From contig NZ_JH376797.1 of NCBI RefSeq assembly GCF_000234095.1, positions 136,493-200,492 of the forward strand: a stretch of 64,000 nucleotides of DNA, given 5' to 3'. Made by a program: the position numbers and the translations under genes. Under the pieces are notes generated by a model that saw nothing but the letters and a program-made list of their open reading frames with translations, was not told where the DNA came from and did not search any database. Source of the DNA: Centipeda infelix ATCC 43532 (GTDB taxonomy: Bacteria; Bacillota; Negativicutes; Selenomonadales; Selenomonadaceae). This document shows, piece by piece, positions 4,405 through 16,024 of this stretch. Every line of letters starts with the position of its first letter. The first letter of the stretch is position 1.

Positions 4405-4436
4405 GATGATAAATAATGAGCACGATAATTATTATA
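4405..4436. promoter_or_regulatory. Possible Fur-type operator over the receptor promoter
   Basis: This AT-rich stretch contains GATAAA, TAATGA, GATAAT and TATTAT hexamers and an AATAAT/ATTATT inverted pair, and it covers the receptor -10. The match to the classical 19-bp Fur box is only partial. The iron-uptake context supports it, but it is a guess. Confidence 0.35.
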
Positions 4437-4458
4437 TGAAAAACCATATAGATGTCAA
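4431..4458 (-). promoter_or_regulatory. Promoter of the TonB receptor operon
   Basis: On the minus strand TTGACA (4453-4458) and TATAAT (4431-4436) are separated by 16 bases, a near-consensus vegetative promoter 52 bases before the receptor ATG. Confidence 0.75.
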
Positions 4459-4487
4459 GAGTAACATTCATTTTCAAAAGCTCTGTT

Positions 4488-4516
4488 TTGACAATGCGAA
4501 TTTTTTTTATTATACT
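4488..4516 (+). promoter_or_regulatory. Promoter of yacL-ispD-ispF-fabK
   Basis: TTGACA and TATACT are separated by exactly 17 bases, with the -10 ending 66 bases before the proposed yacL start. It diverges from the receptor promoter. Confidence 0.8.
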
Positions 4517-4582
4517 GAAAGAGTTGAGAAGGGAGAGATTCGTTTCTTTTCCAACCATAAACAGATGAGAGGAGGTGAATGC

Positions 4583-5731
4583 TTGTTATTCGATCGTATT
4601 TTACGTTTTTTCATTGTGCTCATCATGGCGATTGTCGGCGGAACTCTGTTTGAGCTTGCGATTCCGACGGTGAGCGGCTATTTCGCGGCATCGTTTTGGC
4701 ATGTCGAGCTCGGGGTGCTTGGGCTCTCGCCGGCGGGACTTCTCTGCATTCTCATCGGTACTGCTATCGGCGGCGTGGTCGGCTATCCGCTCGCGCCGTT
4801 CTTCACGGGACGCCTCAGACGTTTCTCCGTGTGGGTGGAGGGGCAGCTTGGCAAGATGCCGACGCGGGATGTGATCGCAGGGGCAATCGGACTTTTTATC
4901 GGACTCATCATTGCGCGTCTCCTCGGTGACGCGTTTTCTATGATACCGATTGTCGGCGACTATATTCCCATCGTGTTCAGCATTGTGCTTGGCTATCTCG
5001 GTGTTCATATCATGGTGCGAAAGCAGGAGGAGCTGGCGGCCGTCTTTGACTTTATCCCGCGTTTCCTGCGCGATATGTCGCGCGCTCGTGAGGGGCGTGT
5101 CTCCACGCAGACGGCGGCATCCTCCGCGCAGTCGGATCGGCAGTACAAGCTGCTCGATACGAGTGTCATCATTGACGGGCGCATCGCGGATATCTGTGAG
5201 ACGGGATTTCTTGAGGGGACGCTGCTCATTCCGGTGTTTGTTCTTGAGGAACTGCAGCATATTGCGGATTCGCCGGATTCTCTAAAGCGCGTGCGCGGAC
5301 GTAGAGGGCTTGACATTCTGCAAAAGATCCGCAAGGAGTCGCGCATGAAGGTGGAGGTCACGGAGACGGACTTTGAGGACATTGCAGAGGTGGACTCGAA
5401 GCTCCTGCAGCTGGCACAGGAGGTCGGCGGCAAGATCATCACGAACGATTTCAACCTGAACAAGGTTGCACAGCTGCGTGGTGTTCCCGTGCTGAACATC
5501 AACGCGCTCTCGAATGCGGTGAAGCCGGTCGCGATCCCCGGCGATCTCATGACGGTGCAGATTGTCCGTCCGGGCAAGGAGCACGGGCAGGGGCTCGCGT
5601 ATCTCGATGATGGCACGATGATCGTTGTGGACGGCGGGTTCCGCTGCATGAACGAGGTTGTGTCTGTCGAGGTGACTTCGGCACTGCAGACGGCGGCGGG
5701 GCGCATGATCTTTGCAAAGCTGACGCGGTAA
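4583..5731 (+). CDS. yacL: YacL-family PIN-TRAM membrane protein
   Basis: The protein is predicted at 382 residues from a TTG start at 4583, which has GGAGGTG 6 bases upstream; the longer in-frame ORF upstream overlaps the promoter. Four membrane helices occupy about residues 1-115. A PIN domain follows (YKLLDTSVIIDGRIADI, then acidic residues and ITNDFNLNKVAQ), then a C-terminal TRAM domain (about 320-380). PIN domains are Mg-dependent RNases and TRAM binds RNA. The cellular role of YacL is not settled in the literature I know. Its place just ahead of ispD-ispF is the same as in Bacillus. Confidence 0.88.
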   Translation: MLFDRILRFFIVLIMAIVGGTLFELAIPTVSGYFAASFWHVELGVLGLSPAGLLCILIGTAIGGVVGYPLAPFFTGRLRRFSVWVEGQLGKMPTRDVIAGAIGLFIGLIIARLLGDAFSMIPIVGDYIPIVFSIVLGYLGVHIMVRKQEELAAVFDFIPRFLRDMSRAREGRVSTQTAASSAQSDRQYKLLDTSVIIDGRIADICETGFLEGTLLIPVFVLEELQHIADSPDSLKRVRGRRGLDILQKIRKESRMKVEVTETDFEDIAEVDSKLLQLAQEVGGKIITNDFNLNKVAQLRGVPVLNINALSNAVKPVAIPGDLMTVQIVRPGKEHGQGLAYLDDGTMIVVDGGFRCMNEVVSVEVTSALQTAAGRMIFAKLTR

Positions 5732-7977: not shown

Positions 7978-8907
7978 ATGGGAACCGACGAACTGACACG
8001 GATTCATGAGCTCGCGAAGCGCGTCACGCTTCTCGAAAAGATGGCGCTGCGTCAGCAGAGTCGCCTTGATGAACTGGTAGAGCGGCTGGAGGCGGCAGAG
8101 CGGCGTGCGGGTGAGATACCGCCGCGCAGGGAGGTGCAGAAGGAGCAGCCTGACAATCCTGCGGCTGAGGCGAACGCCGCCGCACAGCGTGCTGTCCCAT
8201 CGGTGAGCGATCTCCTCAATGAGGAGATGAAACGCGACCTTTCGCGTGCATATACAGGAGCCGCCGCGCCGTCGCCGAATCCCTTGGCAGCGGGGCAGCC
8301 GGCGAAGCCGATGAATGCGATGGAGCGGGCAGCCGGAAGCTATGCGCGTGCGACGGGAGGCAAGGAAGCAACACCGAGTGACCGTGCGAAACAGGATGAA
8401 GCCGCACGAAAAAAAGCCGCCGATGCGGCGGCTTCGCTGGAGCAGATTCCTGTGCAGGAGCTGCGTGAACGAACCCCTGCCGAGCGTGCGGCAGACTATG
8501 TACGCGACTACAATGCGCTCTACGATGTCATGGGGACGATGTTCCAAAAGAAGAAGGCGCAGGACGACTTCATCAAGCTCTACGAAGTGCAGGGGATGCG
8601 CTGCACAAATATGCAGCTGCGCCTCAGCCGCCCCGAGCTCGAACCACGCTTTGTCGCCGTCACTCCGACGCGTGATGCGGACTTCTGGGGGATGCCGCTC
8701 GGCAACAATCTCTTTGCCGTCGTACCAAACCCCTTCCTCGTCTACGGGGAGGAGATGCACACGGCGGGCGGTATGCGCGAGGCATTCAACTCGAACTATC
8801 GCGCGGGGACTACCTACGGTCGCTTTACCGTCAAGGAAACGGCAACCTTCCAGTTCGGCACCATCGGCAAGGTGTTCAAGAAGGGACAGCTTGAGGTTAC
8901 GGTATAA
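7978..8907 (+). CDS. Uncharacterised coiled-coil protein
   Basis: I do not recognise this 309-residue protein. It has no signal peptide or membrane segment. Residues 5-45 form a predicted coiled coil with Leu/Met heptads. Residues 45-165 are low-complexity, rich in Ala, Pro, Arg and Lys. The last 125 residues look like a folded domain (FIKLYEVQGMRCTNMQL, DFWGMPLGNNLFAVVPNPF, TYGRFTVKETATFQFG). It starts 16 bases after fabK and may share its operon; a strong hairpin follows. Charged N-terminal assembly and a C-terminal beta domain might suggest a scaffold, but there is no evidence of function. Confidence 0.7.
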   Translation: MGTDELTRIHELAKRVTLLEKMALRQQSRLDELVERLEAAERRAGEIPPRREVQKEQPDNPAAEANAAAQRAVPSVSDLLNEEMKRDLSRAYTGAAAPSPNPLAAGQPAKPMNAMERAAGSYARATGGKEATPSDRAKQDEAARKKAADAAASLEQIPVQELRERTPAERAADYVRDYNALYDVMGTMFQKKKAQDDFIKLYEVQGMRCTNMQLRLSRPELEPRFVAVTPTRDADFWGMPLGNNLFAVVPNPFLVYGEEMHTAGGMREAFNSNYRAGTTYGRFTVKETATFQFGTIGKVFKKGQLEVTV

Positions 8908-8990: not shown

Positions 8991-9237
8991 AGCGCCCCTT
9001 CCACCGCTTGCGCGGTCCCCCTCCCCCGTGTCGCACGGGGGAGGCTAGGATTATGGCATCTTAGCTTCCCCCGTCGCAACGGGGGAGCGGTCAACGTCAT
9101 CCAATCACACGTCGCTAACGCTCGTGTTCTTGGGTCGTTTTCCCATACGACCTGTTTCCCGATCAGCTACCCCCTTTGGGCTTGCTTCTCGGACAGGTCA
9201 GTAAGTGGCGAGCGCAGCGAGTCGATAGGGGCGTTTA
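8991..9237. repeat. GC-rich nested palindromic repeat, copy B
   Basis: The 342 bases between the gene ending at 8907 and the one ending at 9250 hold no credible gene. They contain stacked palindromes at 9003-9017, 9019-9046 and 9067-9087, joined by a TTAGCTTCCCCC block. A tail at 9201-9233 carries AAGTGGCGAGC and GATAGGGGCG. The palindromes and tail match the element inside the gene at 9250-11103. About 110 extra bases (9091-9200) separate them here. Confidence 0.75.
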
Positions 9238-9249
9238 TGCAACAGTCCC

Positions 9250-11103
9250 TTATTTTTTTGTCTGTTCATGCACCTGTCGTCCTGCGCCTGCGCCGTCGAT
9301 GGCGACGGCGACACCGGTCTCGGTGAAGGTTTTCATGTCGTTTACGACGTGGAGAGCAGCGTGTAGGATGTCGATGCCGAAGATGCCGGCGATGCCGGCG
9401 GTCAATTCCGTGTCGATGGTGAGCATATCGGGGAGAACATGGAGGAGATGGGGAGTGAGGGCGGGGGAGTTTGCTTCTGTCTTGTGTGCGAGACGATCTG
9501 TCCGTGCATCGCCGGGGAGGATGAGACTGCCGCCCACCGCCGCACCGTGCAGGGCATCTGTGAGCGCATCGGTGATGGCGGCACTCGCCTTGTGTTCATC
9601 TGTGCCGAGGATAAGGATCGGGGAGCTGCGGGCGAGACGGTATGCAGCTGCGTATGCGTCCTCGCTGTCGTGTGAGGTGAGGATGTGGACGGGGATGCCG
9701 CGTGTATCCGTCAGGGCTGAGAGGATGCGCACGAGAACTTCGGGAAGTGCTTCGCTCTCTGTGATCAGGAGCAGTGCCGCCTGTGTGTTCAGAGGAGGAC
9801 GCTCGCAGTGCATCACGCCCGCGAGCCGTACGGCAATCCGCTCAAGATAGCCGAGGCTGTGGATGGGCTTTGCGAGGTTATCGAGGCGGTATTGACAGGC
9901 GGACATAGAGGATTGGTTGGGAGGGGGAAGACGCAGTGACCCCACCGCCGCTTTGCGATTCCACTCCCCCTCTGTGACGGGGGCGGCTTTTAATAACGCC
10001 ATATTAGCTTCCCCCGCTTGCGGGGGAAGTGGCGAGCAAAGCGCGCCGATAAGGGGGCGGTGGATCGCCTCCTCTGGTGAAGTATCTATTGTTTCCCAGA
10101 CCTTTAGCATCTGCCCAAGCGTACGAAGCACAATCGACGAGCCTGCTGCTTCGCTTAGGCGTATATCGAGGCGGAGGATCGGCGTAGGTCCGAGGTGGTG
10201 CAGCGCGTGCGGATGCGAGTGTTCTGTCAGCGATGCGTGCGAGGCGAGGAGATAATGCACGCAGTTCGGCGCAAGTGCGTGTGCTACGAGTGCCGCAGAT
10301 GTGGTATTTGCCCCATCGAGAATGACGAGCATCCGCCGTGCAGCCGCCCCGAGAATGAGCCCTGCAATGCAGCCGAGCTCAAATCCTCCGACCTTTGCGA
10401 GCACGTCCAGACCGTCATGCGGATCGGGGCGGTTGACATCGAGGGTGCGGCGGACGATTTCAACCTTATGCGCGAGACGCGCGTCGGAGATATTCGCGCC
10501 GCGTCCCGTGACCTCCTCGGGGGGCAGTCCGAGGAATGCCGCGACCATCGCCGCACTCGATGTTGTGTTGGAAATGCCCATCTCACCGGGCAGGATGCAG
10601 CGGTCACCACGATTGGCACAGTCATTTGCGATTGCGATGCCCGTTTCAATGGACTGGATTGCCTGTGCGCGTGTCATGGCAGGTCCTTTGGTCATGTTTG
10701 CCGTTCCGCGTGCAATGCTGTGGTGTAGAAGTCCGTGGATGTCTGTGTGTTCCGTATTCACGCCAAGATCGGCAACGATAAGGTTTGCGTTTGCATAGTT
10801 TGCGGCGGCGTTCGCTGCACCGCCGCGTGCGATGAGGTAGTTGCACATCATGTTCAGCGTGGTCTCGGGCGGGTAGGCACTGACGCTCTCGGCGGCGACA
10901 CCGTGATCGGCGCAGGAGATGACAACGCTCGTCTGTGGGGGAGCGGGGTGGCGTTCGCCCGTGATACTGATATAGCGGAAAAGTACATCGTTCAGCCGCC
11001 CAAAGTCCACGCCGTCCTGTGACGTCATAGCCCTATCGATCTCGGCAGAAAGATCTGTGACGGGAATTGTGATCTTAGAAATTGTGCGTTCAAGAAGATT
11101 CAT
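9250..11103 (-). CDS. CobT-family tandem protein, ArsA-ArsB-like fusion
   Basis: The 617 residues hold two CobT-related modules. Module 1 (about 1-345) has the CobT core (SCADHGVAAESVSAYP, GEMGISNTTSSAA, RLSEAAGSS with the catalytic-type Glu) but lacks the usual N-terminal TKPPGSLG motif. Module 2 (400-617) has that motif as LAKPIHSLGYLERIAVRLAG and a CobT-like last helix (NDMKTFTETGV), but Ala replaces the catalytic Glu. CobT attaches nicotinate mononucleotide ribose phosphate to the lower-ligand base of cobamides. In Sporomusa, also Negativicutes, the CobT homologues ArsA and ArsB act as a heterodimer that accepts phenolics. Here both halves are in one frame, joined by about 53 residues coded by a palindromic repeat. 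The start overlaps the tex stop (ATGA). Confidence 0.82.
   Translation of the reverse strand: MNLLERTISKITIPVTDLSAEIDRAMTSQDGVDFGRLNDVLFRYISITGERHPAPPQTSVVISCADHGVAAESVSAYPPETTLNMMCNYLIARGGAANAAANYANANLIVADLGVNTEHTDIHGLLHHSIARGTANMTKGPAMTRAQAIQSIETGIAIANDCANRGDRCILPGEMGISNTTSSAAMVAAFLGLPPEEVTGRGANISDARLAHKVEIVRRTLDVNRPDPHDGLDVLAKVGGFELGCIAGLILGAAARRMLVILDGANTTSAALVAHALAPNCVHYLLASHASLTEHSHPHALHHLGPTPILRLDIRLSEAAGSSIVLRTLGQMLKVWETIDTSPEEAIHRPLIGALCSPLPPQAGEANMALLKAAPVTEGEWNRKAAVGSLRLPPPNQSSMSACQYRLDNLAKPIHSLGYLERIAVRLAGVMHCERPPLNTQAALLLITESEALPEVLVRILSALTDTRGIPVHILTSHDSEDAYAAAYRLARSSPILILGTDEHKASAAITDALTDALHGAAVGGSLILPGDARTDRLAHKTEANSPALTPHLLHVLPDMLTIDTELTAGIAGIFGIDILHAALHVVNDMKTFTETGVAVAIDGAGAGRQVHEQTKK
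9911..10068. repeat. Palindromic repeat, copy C, inside a coding region
   Basis: Palindromes CCCCCTCTGTGACGGGGG (9964-9982 region) and CTTCCCCCGCTTGCGGGGG (10010-10028 region) are separated by a TTAATAACGCCATATTAG linker, and a GTGGCGAGC...CGATAAGGGGGCG tail follows. This is the order seen in copy B at 9019-9233. It is read without a stop as residues about 346-398 of the CobT-family protein, with the low-complexity look of translated palindrome. Confidence 0.75.
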
Positions 11104-13289
11104 GCGCGTACCTTTTCCTTTTTCATGCGTTTCAGGGAGAGCCCGATACGGCCGCGTGCCTCGTCAATGCTGATAATCATAACGTCGAGGGAGTCGCCGA
11201 CGGAGAGTGCGTCGAGCGGATGGCGCACGCGGCGGTGGCTCATCTCGGAGATGTGGAGAAGCCCCGCCTGTTTCAGCCCAATGTCGATGAATGCGCCAAA
11301 GTCCGTGATGTTGCGTACCGTTCCTTTGAGGATGGTGCCAACGGCGAGATCGGAGAGCTTTACAATGTTCTGACGTGTGAGCGGTGCGGGCAGATCCTCG
11401 CGCGGATCACGCCCGGGACGTGCAATTGCCTTGAGGATGTCCGTGACGGTCGGAATACCCGCGCTGAGTTTTTTTGCAAGCGGTGCTGCCGCTGTCTGTG
11501 CGGTCTTTAAGGCGAGGGCAGGGAGCTTCGCACGGTCGCGCAGATCGTCCTCGCTGACACCGAGCTCCGCGAGGATGGAGCGTGTAAGCTCATAGGACTC
11601 GGGATGAATAGCAGTGCTATCAAGCGGCGTTTCGCCCTCGTGGATGCGCAGGAAGCCCGCGCACTGCGTAAAGGCGGCATCGCCGAGGCGTGCGACCTTT
11701 CGGAGTGTCTTGCGGCTTGTGAAGCGTCCGTGTTCGTTGCGATAGGCGACGATATTCTTTGCAATCGTCGCGTTGATTCCCGCAATGCGGTTCAGCAGAG
11801 CGGGGGAGGCGGTGTTGAGGTCAACGCCGACATGGTTCACCGCATCCTCTACGGTTGCGTCCAGTGTCTCCTTGAGCTGTTTTTGACTGACATCGTGCTG
11901 ATACTGTCCGACGCCAATCGCCTGCGGATCGATCTTCACAAGCTCTGCGAGCGGATCCTGTACGCGCCGCGCGATGGAGACTGCACCGCGAATCGTGACA
12001 TCGTAGTCGGGCAGTTCATCCTTCGCGAGTTGAGAGGCGGAGTAGACGGAGGCACCCGCCTCGTTCGTGATAAGGTAGTGCACATCCTTCAGATCGTTGT
12101 CGCGGATGAGTGCGGCAACGAATTGCTCCGTTTCGTAGGAAGCAGTGCCGTTGCCGATCGAGATGAGCGTAACCCCGTGCGCCTTGATGAGCTTCAGCAG
12201 GGTCTGTGCCGCCGATCTGCGTTCGCCGTCACTCCGTGTGACCTGTATCACGCCGCTTGCGAGGACGTTGCCCGTTGCGTCGACGAGTGCCATTTTGCAG
12301 CCCGTGCGATAGCCGGGGTCAAGCCCAAGAACGGTATGGCCTGCGAGGGGCGGCTGCAGGAGGAGTTGACGGAGGTTGTGCCCGAACACGGCGATCGCCT
12401 TTTCCTCGGCAGCCTCAGTCAGCTGTGTGCGCAGTTCACGTTCGAGCGCGGGGACGAGCAGACGCTTGTAGCCATCCTCAATCGCCGCATGCAGTTCTCC
12501 TTCGAAAATCGAGGGACGCTGATGGATCCTCTTGTCAATCCACGCGATGTTGTCCTCGTGGTTGACAGCGATGCGGACAACGAGACAGCCCTTTTTCTCA
12601 CCGCGATTGACGGCGAGAATCCGATGCGAGGGAAGTGTGCGGACGGGCTCGCTGTAGCCGTCGTACATCTGAAAGACCTGTGCATCCTCGGCATCGGCAT
12701 TGAGCGTCGTTTCAAGGACGGCACTTCTCCAAAACTTTTCGCGCATGAGGCGGCGCAGCTCCGCCTCGTCCATGATCGTCTCGGCGAGGATATCACGCGC
12801 ACCCGCAAGTGCGTCGGCGACCGTTGGGACTTCCTTTTCTGCATTTACATACGGTGTAGCAGCTTCCTTGGGCGAGCCTTTGGCCTCTCGTTGGAGCAGC
12901 ATCGTGTTTGCAAGGTTTTCCAGCCCCCGCTCACGGGCAATGGAGGCGCGTGTGCGTTTCTTCTGTTTGTAGGGGCGGTAGAGATCTTCGAGTGTCTGAA
13001 GTTTTTCGGCGGCTTCGATTTCTGTACGCAGATCGTCCGTCAGCTTACCCTGCTCCTCGATGCGTGCAAGGATTTCCTCCTGGCGTTTGACAAGGCTGCG
13101 CAGGTAGGTGAGACGCGTCTCCACTTGACGCAGCACCTCGTCCTCAAGGGAGCCGGTCGCCTCCTTGCGGTAGCGTGCAATGAAGGGAATCGTGTTGCCG
13201 TCGTCGAGGAGTGTGATAACGGATTCGACCTGCTGCGGACGAATGGAGAGTTCGCCTGCAATCGCTGCGGGAATATCGGAGATGCGCAT
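11100..13289 (-). CDS. tex: Tex-family transcription accessory protein
   Basis: Predicted at 729 residues, this is the size of Tex, a conserved cytoplasmic nucleic-acid-binding protein. Order: N-terminal Tex helical domain, a YqgF-like RNase H fold (GLDPGYRTGCKMALVD, about residues 320-460), a helix-hairpin-helix pair (LNTASPALLNRIAGI) and a C-terminal S1 RNA-binding domain (GTILKGTVRNITDFGAFIDIG, about 640-710). I start at the ATG at 13289; the ORF could extend to 13373 but that stretch contains the promoter. It is followed directly by the CobT-family gene with an overlapping start. Confidence 0.95.
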   Translation of the reverse strand: MRISDIPAAIAGELSIRPQQVESVITLLDDGNTIPFIARYRKEATGSLEDEVLRQVETRLTYLRSLVKRQEEILARIEEQGKLTDDLRTEIEAAEKLQTLEDLYRPYKQKKRTRASIARERGLENLANTMLLQREAKGSPKEAATPYVNAEKEVPTVADALAGARDILAETIMDEAELRRLMREKFWRSAVLETTLNADAEDAQVFQMYDGYSEPVRTLPSHRILAVNRGEKKGCLVVRIAVNHEDNIAWIDKRIHQRPSIFEGELHAAIEDGYKRLLVPALERELRTQLTEAAEEKAIAVFGHNLRQLLLQPPLAGHTVLGLDPGYRTGCKMALVDATGNVLASGVIQVTRSDGERRSAAQTLLKLIKAHGVTLISIGNGTASYETEQFVAALIRDNDLKDVHYLITNEAGASVYSASQLAKDELPDYDVTIRGAVSIARRVQDPLAELVKIDPQAIGVGQYQHDVSQKQLKETLDATVEDAVNHVGVDLNTASPALLNRIAGINATIAKNIVAYRNEHGRFTSRKTLRKVARLGDAAFTQCAGFLRIHEGETPLDSTAIHPESYELTRSILAELGVSEDDLRDRAKLPALALKTAQTAAAPLAKKLSAGIPTVTDILKAIARPGRDPREDLPAPLTRQNIVKLSDLAVGTILKGTVRNITDFGAFIDIGLKQAGLLHISEMSHRRVRHPLDALSVGDSLDVMIISIDEARGRIGLSLKRMKKEKVRA

Positions 13290-13325
13290 GAAACCAAACC
13301 TTTCTTTTTCGATTGAATGTTTTCC

Positions 13326-13354
13326 ATTATACCATGATTTTCGTGCCGTGCAAA
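13326..13354 (-). promoter_or_regulatory. Promoter of tex
   Basis: On the minus strand TTTGCA (13349-13354), 17 bases and TATAAT (13326-13331) with a TGG extension lie 37 bases before the proposed ATG, supporting the shorter tex start. Confidence 0.65.
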
Positions 13355-13383
13355 AGATATCATCGATTCTCATAACGGGACTA

Positions 13384-13975: not shown

Positions 13976-14389
13976 GGAGGAAGTTCGTCCTTACTTTATT
14001 TCGCGTGAAAAATAAAAAATATTTTTCCATACTATGTAAAAAGTCCTGTATCAAAATTTCAGAAATGCAGGAATTTATATGCGAAATTCTTGTCTTTTGT
14101 ATCAATTTTATGCAAAAAGGAACCGCCTACTGCCTCTGTGTTGCTTTATCTACATCATATCAATAGAAGGAACGTAGACGTTTGTTTTATTTTCTGAATT
14201 TTTGTTTGACTAATATTTTTTCTTTTTTAAGAAAATTTTTTCTTGACTAAACTTACTACATGATGAGAAAATAACGATAAAAATAATGGGGCTATCATCC
14301 TAAATTAAATGATTCATTATTCCTTTGAAGTACAGATCATAGACGTATAATTATTTCACATTACGCCATTGTGGAGGGACAACAGATTC
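13976..14389 (+). other. AT-rich intergenic leader before the polysaccharide locus
   Basis: These 414 bases contain no believable gene. They are far more AT-rich than the surroundings, with long T and A runs at about 14214-14245 and a direct repeat of TTGACTAA at 14206-14213 and 14243-14250, 37 bases apart. This looks like regulatory DNA, perhaps for an activator or a nucleoid protein. Confidence 0.5.
14325..14351 (+). promoter_or_regulatory. Candidate promoter of the polysaccharide locus
   Basis: A consensus TATAAT (14346-14351) lies 38 bases before the ATG. TTGAAG at 14325-14330 gives only 15-base spacing, so the -35 is weak and activator help is plausible. Confidence 0.45.
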
Positions 14390-16024
14390 ATGATTCGATA
14401 TCGATACGGAACTGCCTGCTTGTTGTGCATGCTTGCGGGAACACTGCCGCACGCAACATTTGCGCAGACAACACCGTCATGGGTATATGATGCGGTGCAT
14501 CATCTGGAAGAGGAAGGCTACATTGATCTTGGCGGGCGGGAAGCCGCAAGCATTCCGCACGATGATCTGACAAAGATTGTGGCACAGGGACTGCATGAGA
14601 TCGACCGCATCCAGCAGGGGACGCTGGCGGATGAGTACGGACGCATCACGAGCCTTGCCGTACGCGATGAAGCACATATGAAGCTCTATTGGGAGCAGGA
14701 GAGGTATGCGCTGAAAGGGTACGAAGCAGCGCAGACAGACGCGCGAAAGGCGGAAGAACTGCTCGCTCGCCAATCCATGCGCGGGGAGAATCGTCTCGAG
14801 GTCATGCAGCCGTTGCAGGAGCGGACTGCTGCCGCGAGTCGTCGGCTTCAGTTCGCTGCTCGTGATTATGCACTTGCAAAGGTGCGCCGTCAAAAACGGG
14901 AGCTTGCCCTGGCGAAGGTGCGGGAGCGTCAGCAGATGATCTTCACCTCCCTGACGGGGGAGGACGGCGGCGATTCTTCCATATCTGCCGAGCCCCTGGT
15001 CGAGCCGCAGGTTCTTGCGCTTGCCGCGCGTTTGCGCTCTGCATTCATTGAGGATTTGGCAGAGACAGGTTATATGGATCGGGAGAATGCCGAGCAGCAG
15101 CTCTATGCATCGGTGCTTCTGCCCGAAGCAAAGGTTCCGCGTGTGAAGGTCGATGCCGAGGTGCGGATTGATGCCTCCCGCTCCGCCGGGGGTGAGCGCG
15201 GGGACAGTCGTTCCCGCGTACGTGCCCGCATCTATCCGGACTATGACATTGATGGGAATTGGCACGCCGCAGGGATGGTCGAGTATGAAAAGCGACTGAC
15301 GGGCGGCGGAGGCGATAAGGATGGAAAACTGAAGCTGGATCGTTACTATTTGACCGGAAGCCTGGGAGCTGCTCAAACAACCGTCGGCGTGTTTGGTGCA
15401 ACGATGGCAGAGGGGAATATCTACGACAGCAAGTTTCGTGGCGTACGATTTTCGATGGGAGCGCCGATTACCTATGCGGCGGAATACGGACGAATTGACC
15501 GTGCACACACGGTCGCGAATCTGACCGCCTCCTACGATGCGAAAACCTATAAGGCGGAAGCGGGGATGTACCGCTTTGACAAGATCGGCAATGCGACGCG
15601 CAATATCTATATGCTGAACTATCGAAAGCCGATCGGTGCATTCGATTTTGGTGCAATGCTCCTCTATGGAAGGGATCACGCGGCCGGCAATGGAACGGGG
15701 TATGTTTTCACTTTGGAGCGCGGCGGTGCGAGTGCATGGCGACCGGGTTCTTCCTCCTATTTTCTGAAGTATTATCATCAGCCGAGTTCCACGTACGTGA
15801 GCCATACGATGAATGGCTCTGCGGACTATATGAGCTATGACGCTGCGCTCAGAGGTCCAGTGCGCGGCGGCTTCCGTGGTTGGGGTGTAGGGTGGTCGTA
15901 TACGGTGAAAAAAGATCTGAACTTCTCTATCGAGTATTTTCATCTGTGGGATTTGCAGACGCACGAGCGGAGCAGGACAATCTGGGGGGCACTGACGCGA
16001 TATTTCAAAAATTATGAAGAATAA
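14390..16024 (+). CDS. Outer-membrane beta-barrel protein at the head of the polysaccharide locus
   Basis: The product is 544 residues from the ATG at 14390, with GGAGGG 13 bases upstream. A signal peptide ends at about residue 25 (ATFA, then QTT). Residues 26-75 resemble a short surface-layer-homology-like segment (VYDAVHHLEEEGYI). Residues 95-190 are a charged helical, probably coiled-coil stretch. From about 235 to the end the chain alternates in beta-strand fashion (DAEVRIDAS, YFLKYYHQPSS, SIEYFHLWDL), as in porins of diderm Firmicutes that tether the outer membrane to the cell wall. It heads a tight operon, so export of the polymer is a fair guess. The family is not certain. Confidence 0.72.
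   Translation: MIRYRYGTACLLCMLAGTLPHATFAQTTPSWVYDAVHHLEEEGYIDLGGREAASIPHDDLTKIVAQGLHEIDRIQQGTLADEYGRITSLAVRDEAHMKLYWEQERYALKGYEAAQTDARKAEELLARQSMRGENRLEVMQPLQERTAAASRRLQFAARDYALAKVRRQKRELALAKVRERQQMIFTSLTGEDGGDSSISAEPLVEPQVLALAARLRSAFIEDLAETGYMDRENAEQQLYASVLLPEAKVPRVKVDAEVRIDASRSAGGERGDSRSRVRARIYPDYDIDGNWHAAGMVEYEKRLTGGGGDKDGKLKLDRYYLTGSLGAAQTTVGVFGATMAEGNIYDSKFRGVRFSMGAPITYAAEYGRIDRAHTVANLTASYDAKTYKAEAGMYRFDKIGNATRNIYMLNYRKPIGAFDFGAMLLYGRDHAAGNGTGYVFTLERGGASAWRPGSSSYFLKYYHQPSSTYVSHTMNGSADYMSYDAALRGPVRGGFRGWGVGWSYTVKKDLNFSIEYFHLWDLQTHERSRTIWGALTRYFKNYEE

Follow-up and report, generated by a model that had tools for sequence, protein, structure and literature searches.

A probable single-chain ArsAB with a reduced ArsB half, encoded by one gene in Centipeda infelix and throughout the Selenomonadaceae loci read

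Among the described systems, the ArsAB of Sporomusa ovata (PDB 4hdk, 4hdm, 4hdn, 4hdr and 4hds) is the one to which both halves of the protein considered here are orthologous by tree. Sporomusa encodes ArsA and ArsB by two genes. CobT of Salmonella enterica (PDB 1d0s and 1l4e; 4kqj with p-cresol) is a homodimer with two active sites per molecule. In this enzyme, E174 contacts the ribose 2'-OH, E317 is the general base, and the base pocket is built by both chains (PMC9561151). In the survey of Shelton et al., arsAB was assigned only where two cobT genes of 300-800 aa lie side by side (27 species; PMC6461909); these tandem arsA/arsB genes of Negativicutes belong to the same bacterial class and to the same two protein families as the locus studied here. 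Because it needs tandem genes of that length, such a survey would miss a fused gene or an ArsB shorter than 300 aa. Another lower-ligand fusion enzyme, BluB/CobT2 of Propionibacterium freudenreichii, is reported to join DMB synthesis to CobT (PMC4657239), whereas the present gene joins two CobT-family subunits. Fused ArsAB is not described in the open-access literature that we searched, and subscription papers may hold such a description. Phenolyl cobamides account for 20-34% of the cobamides of the bovine rumen and 16% of those in human faeces, and their only proven producers are S. ovata and Veillonella parvula (PMC8123684).

The DNA analysed, hereafter the window, is a 64,000-nucleotide stretch of the genome of Centipeda infelix ATCC 43532. 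Positions 9250-11103 of the minus strand carry an open reading frame that starts with ATG at 11103, stops at 9250 and encodes 617 aa without an internal stop. In a profile search it was the sole PF02277 (CobT-family) gene of the whole 2.41-Mb genome. The closest named relatives are Selenomonas massiliensis, S. noxia, S. flueggei and Centipeda periodontii. The initial annotation had proposed that one frame encodes both ArsA and ArsB, and this is borne out by the 617-aa frame together with the assignment of its two modules by PDB matches and trees. Since ArsAB is otherwise recognized as two chains from tandem genes (PMC6461909) and the window has one 617-aa frame, we class the protein as a fused ArsAB variant and not as a classical member. 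The frame is kept in all 14 genomes of the genus, which excludes chance.

Immediately upstream lies tex (11100-13373, minus strand; Pfam Tex_N, Tex_YqgF and S1), the stop codon of which overlaps the arsAB start codon in an ATGA sequence (junction at 11099-11104). As tex is directly 5' of arsAB in most Selenomonadaceae loci read, this RNA-binding factor is possibly coupled to the cobamide gene. A scan for cobalamin riboswitches was negative for the window and for the further arsAB loci L033 and L142, in contrast to a Sporomusa-type genome (L140), where one occupies positions 4419-4601 right upstream of arsA. Two long plus-strand open reading frames in the window, 7978-8907 and 14369-16024, have no Pfam match; the former is kept beside arsAB across the genus.

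Module 1 (aa 1-340; 10084-11103, minus strand) is the ArsA, catalytic half. Its residues 1-334 matched ArsA 4hdk_A with an E-value of 4.3e-99, far above any CobT, it is about 50% identical to Sporomusa ArsA, and its fold model superimposed on ArsA 4hdr_C with Z 43.3 and rmsd 1.4. The fold is also like that of S. enterica CobT (1l4e; Z 43.7, rmsd 2.5), with which the catalytic glutamates are shared: Glu174 (codon 10582-10584, minus strand; PGEMGISNTT) aligns with E174, and Glu318 (codon 10150-10152, minus strand; RLSEAAGSS), an invariant alignment column, is the equivalent of the general base E317. A tree built from 85 domains of ArsA, ArsB and CobT has a branch with full SH-aLRT support (100) that sets apart an ArsA clade of 47 rows, the window protein among them, from all 21 CobT rows. 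By phylogeny, Module 1 is thus an ArsA and not a CobT. It also departs from CobT in that the N-terminus is degenerate, without LTKPPGSLG, and the C-terminal MATFxEAGV is lacking, so that it does not hold all the CobT elements in the same domain.

Module 2 (aa 393-617; 9253-9927, minus strand) is a reduced ArsB. When searched alone, its best PDB match was ArsB 4hdk_B (E 6.5e-14), with only ArsB residues 20-64 and 283-345 covered, and its model matched the fold of 4hdm_B (Z 14.0, rmsd 3.0, 181 residues aligned). In the tree, Module 2 rows join the separate ArsB proteins with a support of 100; the idea that Module 2 is a mere repeat of Module 1 was rejected on this basis. It carries LDNLAKPIHSLG and NDMKTFTETGVAVAIDGAGAGRQ, the N-terminal KPxxSLG and C-terminal MKTFxE segments, respectively. 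The latter is part of the ArsB C-terminal extension, NDMKTFxExxVxVAxDGxGAxxQ, which is present with its N, M, T, F, V, A, D, G, G and Q invariant. Compared with Sporomusa ArsB, Module 2 keeps both terminal signatures and has about 225 aa in place of 350. Both catalytic glutamates are lost: LTAGIAG stands where the E317-type glutamate is expected, and GEMG is gone. The initial annotation spoke of two CobT-like modules. This stands for Module 1; Module 2 is ArsB, but about 130 residues are missing from its middle and it falls short of a full-length CobT-type fold (~350 aa). The complementarity foreseen there was confirmed, as Module 1 has the glutamate but not the KPPGSLG-type segment and Module 2 the reverse, and it goes further than foreseen, since Module 2 also holds the C-terminal segment that Module 1 lacks. 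The elements of a single S. enterica CobT chain are thereby divided between two modules, and the fused protein would have one active site per molecule. The possibility that Module 2 aligns to no ArsB was checked by best match, C-terminal signature and tree, and all three identified it as ArsB.

Conservation within the reduced half is confined to its ends. Among 19 Negativicutes ArsB modules, the invariant columns (Sporomusa-type ArsB numbering) all fall within positions 13-46 (C13, L20, K22, P23, L27, E31 and P46) and 315-337 (N315, M317, T319, F320, V325, A328, D330, G331, G333 and Q337), and they include stretches matching LTKPPGSLG and MATFxEAGV of ordinary CobT. Selection followed the same pattern. 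Over 91 pairs from 14 genomes of the genus, the Module 1 core had a median pN/pS of 0.15. In Module 2 the N- and C-terminal ends gave 0.25 and 0.24, respectively, and the middle 0.59, while the linker between the modules reached 0.79. With synonymous sites near saturation (pS ~0.6), the values are meaningful only relative to one another. The N-terminal part with CQYRLDNLAKPIHSLGYLE (aa 393-437; 9793-9927, minus strand) and the C-terminal part with the ArsB signature ALHVVNDMKTFTETGVAVAIDGAGAGRQ (aa 561-613; 9265-9423, minus strand) are therefore the constrained regions, and the middle (aa 438-560; 9424-9792, minus strand; identity 0.43) is an eroded ArsB core without catalytic glutamates and with deletions relative to ArsB. 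One could read the eroded core, its fast evolution and the loss of catalytic residues as signs that Module 2 is a functionless, decaying remnant and that Module 1 acts alone or as a homodimer. We regard this as very improbable, as both ends are under purifying selection, they keep their invariant residues class-wide even where the core is nearly gone (L154 and L159), and the segments kept in Module 2 are exactly those absent from Module 1.

The linker (aa 341-392; 9928-10083, minus strand) is predicted to be disordered, with residues 353-386 mostly at pLDDT below 50. Across the genus it varies from 23 to 74 aa with a median identity of 0.21. A dispersed palindromic repeat supplies part of its coding sequence (about 9945-10058); the same genome holds 24 further matches to it at E <= 1e-4, and this copy shares repeats with an intergenic one at 8998-9231. 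The sister genome G120 has a longer linker derived from its own abundant dispersed repeat (C1:2016618-2016848; 52 other matches). With repeats inside the linkers of both genomes, insertions are thus tolerated there provided that the reading frame is preserved. An in-frame palindromic repeat that codes for protein resembles protein-coding palindromic elements. That part of the linker is a repeat copy might also indicate that repeat insertion, or an assembly error, produced the fusion by accident. We attach practically no weight to this: all genus members have the fused gene, in most cases with a linker far shorter than here, and the fusion is spread over the family and into other families. With sister genomes fused as well, an assembly artefact or recent accident was rejected.

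The disordered linker is likewise compatible with two proteins being made, either because translation also starts internally, at Met400, or because the linker is cleaved, which would still give a heterodimer. In 13 of the 14 genus members, the Module 2 motif has a Met ahead of it. However, there is no Shine-Dalgarno-like sequence ahead of Met400 (CTTCCCCCTCCCAACCAATCCTCTATG), this position is Ile in L015, and all genus members preserve the frame across a linker of high variability, which would be needless for two proteins. Production of two chains thus seems highly unlikely.

The sister-strain comparison that the initial annotation called for revealed no split genes, either in the genus or at the further loci of the family that were read. 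All Selenomonadaceae open reading frames read, from 13 genera, carry the two modules in a single frame, and ArsA and ArsB models matched within frames of equal length in further genera. Fusions occur in other families of Negativicutes as well (f4, f6, f8, f12, f14, f15 and f20), and separate, tandem arsA and arsB genes are present in others; in f8, f12 and f20, some genera have the fused gene and others of the same family have separate genes. Parsimony gave at least six switches between the fused and separate states on a rapidly built tree in which several forks are weak. The size of ArsB in Negativicutes forms a series of about 350, 255, 225, 115 and 85 aa, and the distance between the N- and C-terminal motifs falls from about 304 aa in the Sporomusa type to 229 in most Selenomonadaceae, 187 in the window and 84 in L154 and L159. 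The most reduced form is that of a genus additional to the 13, g18 (L158 and L206), which retains about 85 aa of ArsB, and even the DGPG tail is gone. Separate ArsB proteins are also shortened (281 aa in L151 and 290 aa in L153), so the shrinking of ArsB does not require fusion. Family-wide fusion, progressive ArsB erosion and a repeat-derived linker are beyond what the initial annotation had foreseen.

Other unusual members of the protein family were noted. A genome of family f2 (L202) has a tandem CobT-like pair, one protein of which (355 aa) is sister to all ArsA (support 99) while the other groups with Negativicutes CobT; the pair may represent an intermediate stage in how ArsA arose. In Lachnospiraceae/Clostridia MAGs, two CobT-family proteins carry extra N-terminal sequence (709 aa, L096 at 4834; 465 aa, L085 at 5611).

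AlphaFold2 (AF2) modelled the whole chain with a pLDDT of 86.6 and a pTM of 0.89, residues 601-617 being of low confidence. When Module 2 was modelled alone with the same fused relatives, the pLDDT was 64.8 and nearly all of the first 23 residues were below 50. That Module 2 is modelled more poorly alone than in the whole chain suggests that Module 1 orders it, and packing of Module 2 on Module 1 within the molecule is predicted by the model. Archaeal CobTs, which have the ligand site in one chain, align over model residues 34 to 595, so that the end of Module 2 maps onto the archaeal C-terminus. The C-terminal region of archaeal CobT moves to close the active site (PMC9561151); the predicted position of the Module 2 end at such a closing segment is suggestive only, given the low confidence of the final tail in the model.

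Elsewhere in the genome, about 460 kb from arsAB, lies an anaerobic corrin operon (C1:604655-616193; L212 12656-19887 plus L213 121-4293) comprising cbiD-E-T-F-G-H-J-C-A, cobU, cbiP, cbiB and cobS, in which no cobT was found. Benzimidazole synthesis was searched for with two families: BluB gave no match over the cut-off in this genome, and the ThiC-like bza family gave no match. With a full cbi/cob operon, a sole CobT-family gene, and neither BluB nor bza found, the fused gene encodes the only evident base-activating enzyme, and the case for phenolyl cobamides is strengthened.

Which base is activated was considered separately. The protein could be an ArsAB-type single-chain dimer that is a CobT by function, with scavenged benzimidazoles or purines as substrates and Module 2 serving only dimer geometry. 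The whole chain scored 339.4 against TIGR03160 (CobT equivalog; cut-off 319.3), and Module 1 alone scored 308.6, below the cut-off; on homology alone, benzimidazoles are therefore not excluded as substrates. Retention of the catalytic base Glu318 fits this reading, since an imidazole requires such a base more than a phenol would. In addition, Sporomusa ArsAB can also activate DMB according to a review (PMC8123684) and was crystallised with it (4hdr). Still, Module 1 is inside the ArsA clade and not with CobT, the bacteria proven to produce phenolyl cobamides have ArsAB (PMC8123684), and the two-family search yielded no benzimidazole synthesis genes. We consider benzimidazole or purine use unlikely, though with a real chance of being right. 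Tyr77, Met85 and Met175 of the window protein correspond to the p-cresol-binding CobT variant S80Y/Q88M/L175M (PDB 4kqj). This triad (S. enterica CobT positions 80, 88 and 175) was rejected as a test of phenol specificity, for many ordinary CobTs share Tyr/Phe-Met-Met.

We therefore favour, as a good probability, a fused, ArsB-reduced ArsAB variant that works like ArsAB, phenolic specificity being the least certain step. It would be a single-chain nicotinate-mononucleotide:base phosphoribosyltransferase, in which: Module 1 (ArsA) would bind NaMN and the base and provide both catalytic glutamates; Module 2 (ArsB), having no active site of its own, would fold back via the disordered linker and replace the second subunit of a CobT-type dimer; and the N-terminal KPxxSLG helix region and the C-terminal MKTF...DGxGAxRQ tail of Module 2 would supply the missing parts of the Module 1 base pocket and close it. 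This closing role of the Module 2 ends is deduced rather than observed. The fused chain would fix a 1:1 stoichiometry, and the ArsB core, being free of catalytic duty, may then have been worn away. Given that no other base-activating enzyme is evident and that no benzimidazole synthesis was detected, the lower ligand attached would most likely be phenol or p-cresol, giving phenolyl (p-cresolyl-type) cobamides. It is about an even question whether ArsB is on the way to becoming a pseudo-subunit that acts as a minimal trans-acting lid, with the core dispensable and only the N-terminal KPxxSLG helix and the C-terminal MKTF tail needed for the ArsA site.

The stepwise loss of the ArsB core provides a natural deletion series on what a pseudo-enzyme subunit must keep. 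If the fused gene does the same job as ArsAB, the list of predicted phenolyl-cobamide producers grows by an entire family, oral Selenomonas and Centipeda included. Selenomonas ruminantium, which shares its genus name with the oral Selenomonas, is named among the main cobamide makers of the rumen (PMC8123684). If the lid reading of ArsB is true, bacteria with this one gene, uncounted by surveys of tandem genes, could be major phenolyl-cobamide makers of the rumen and gut.
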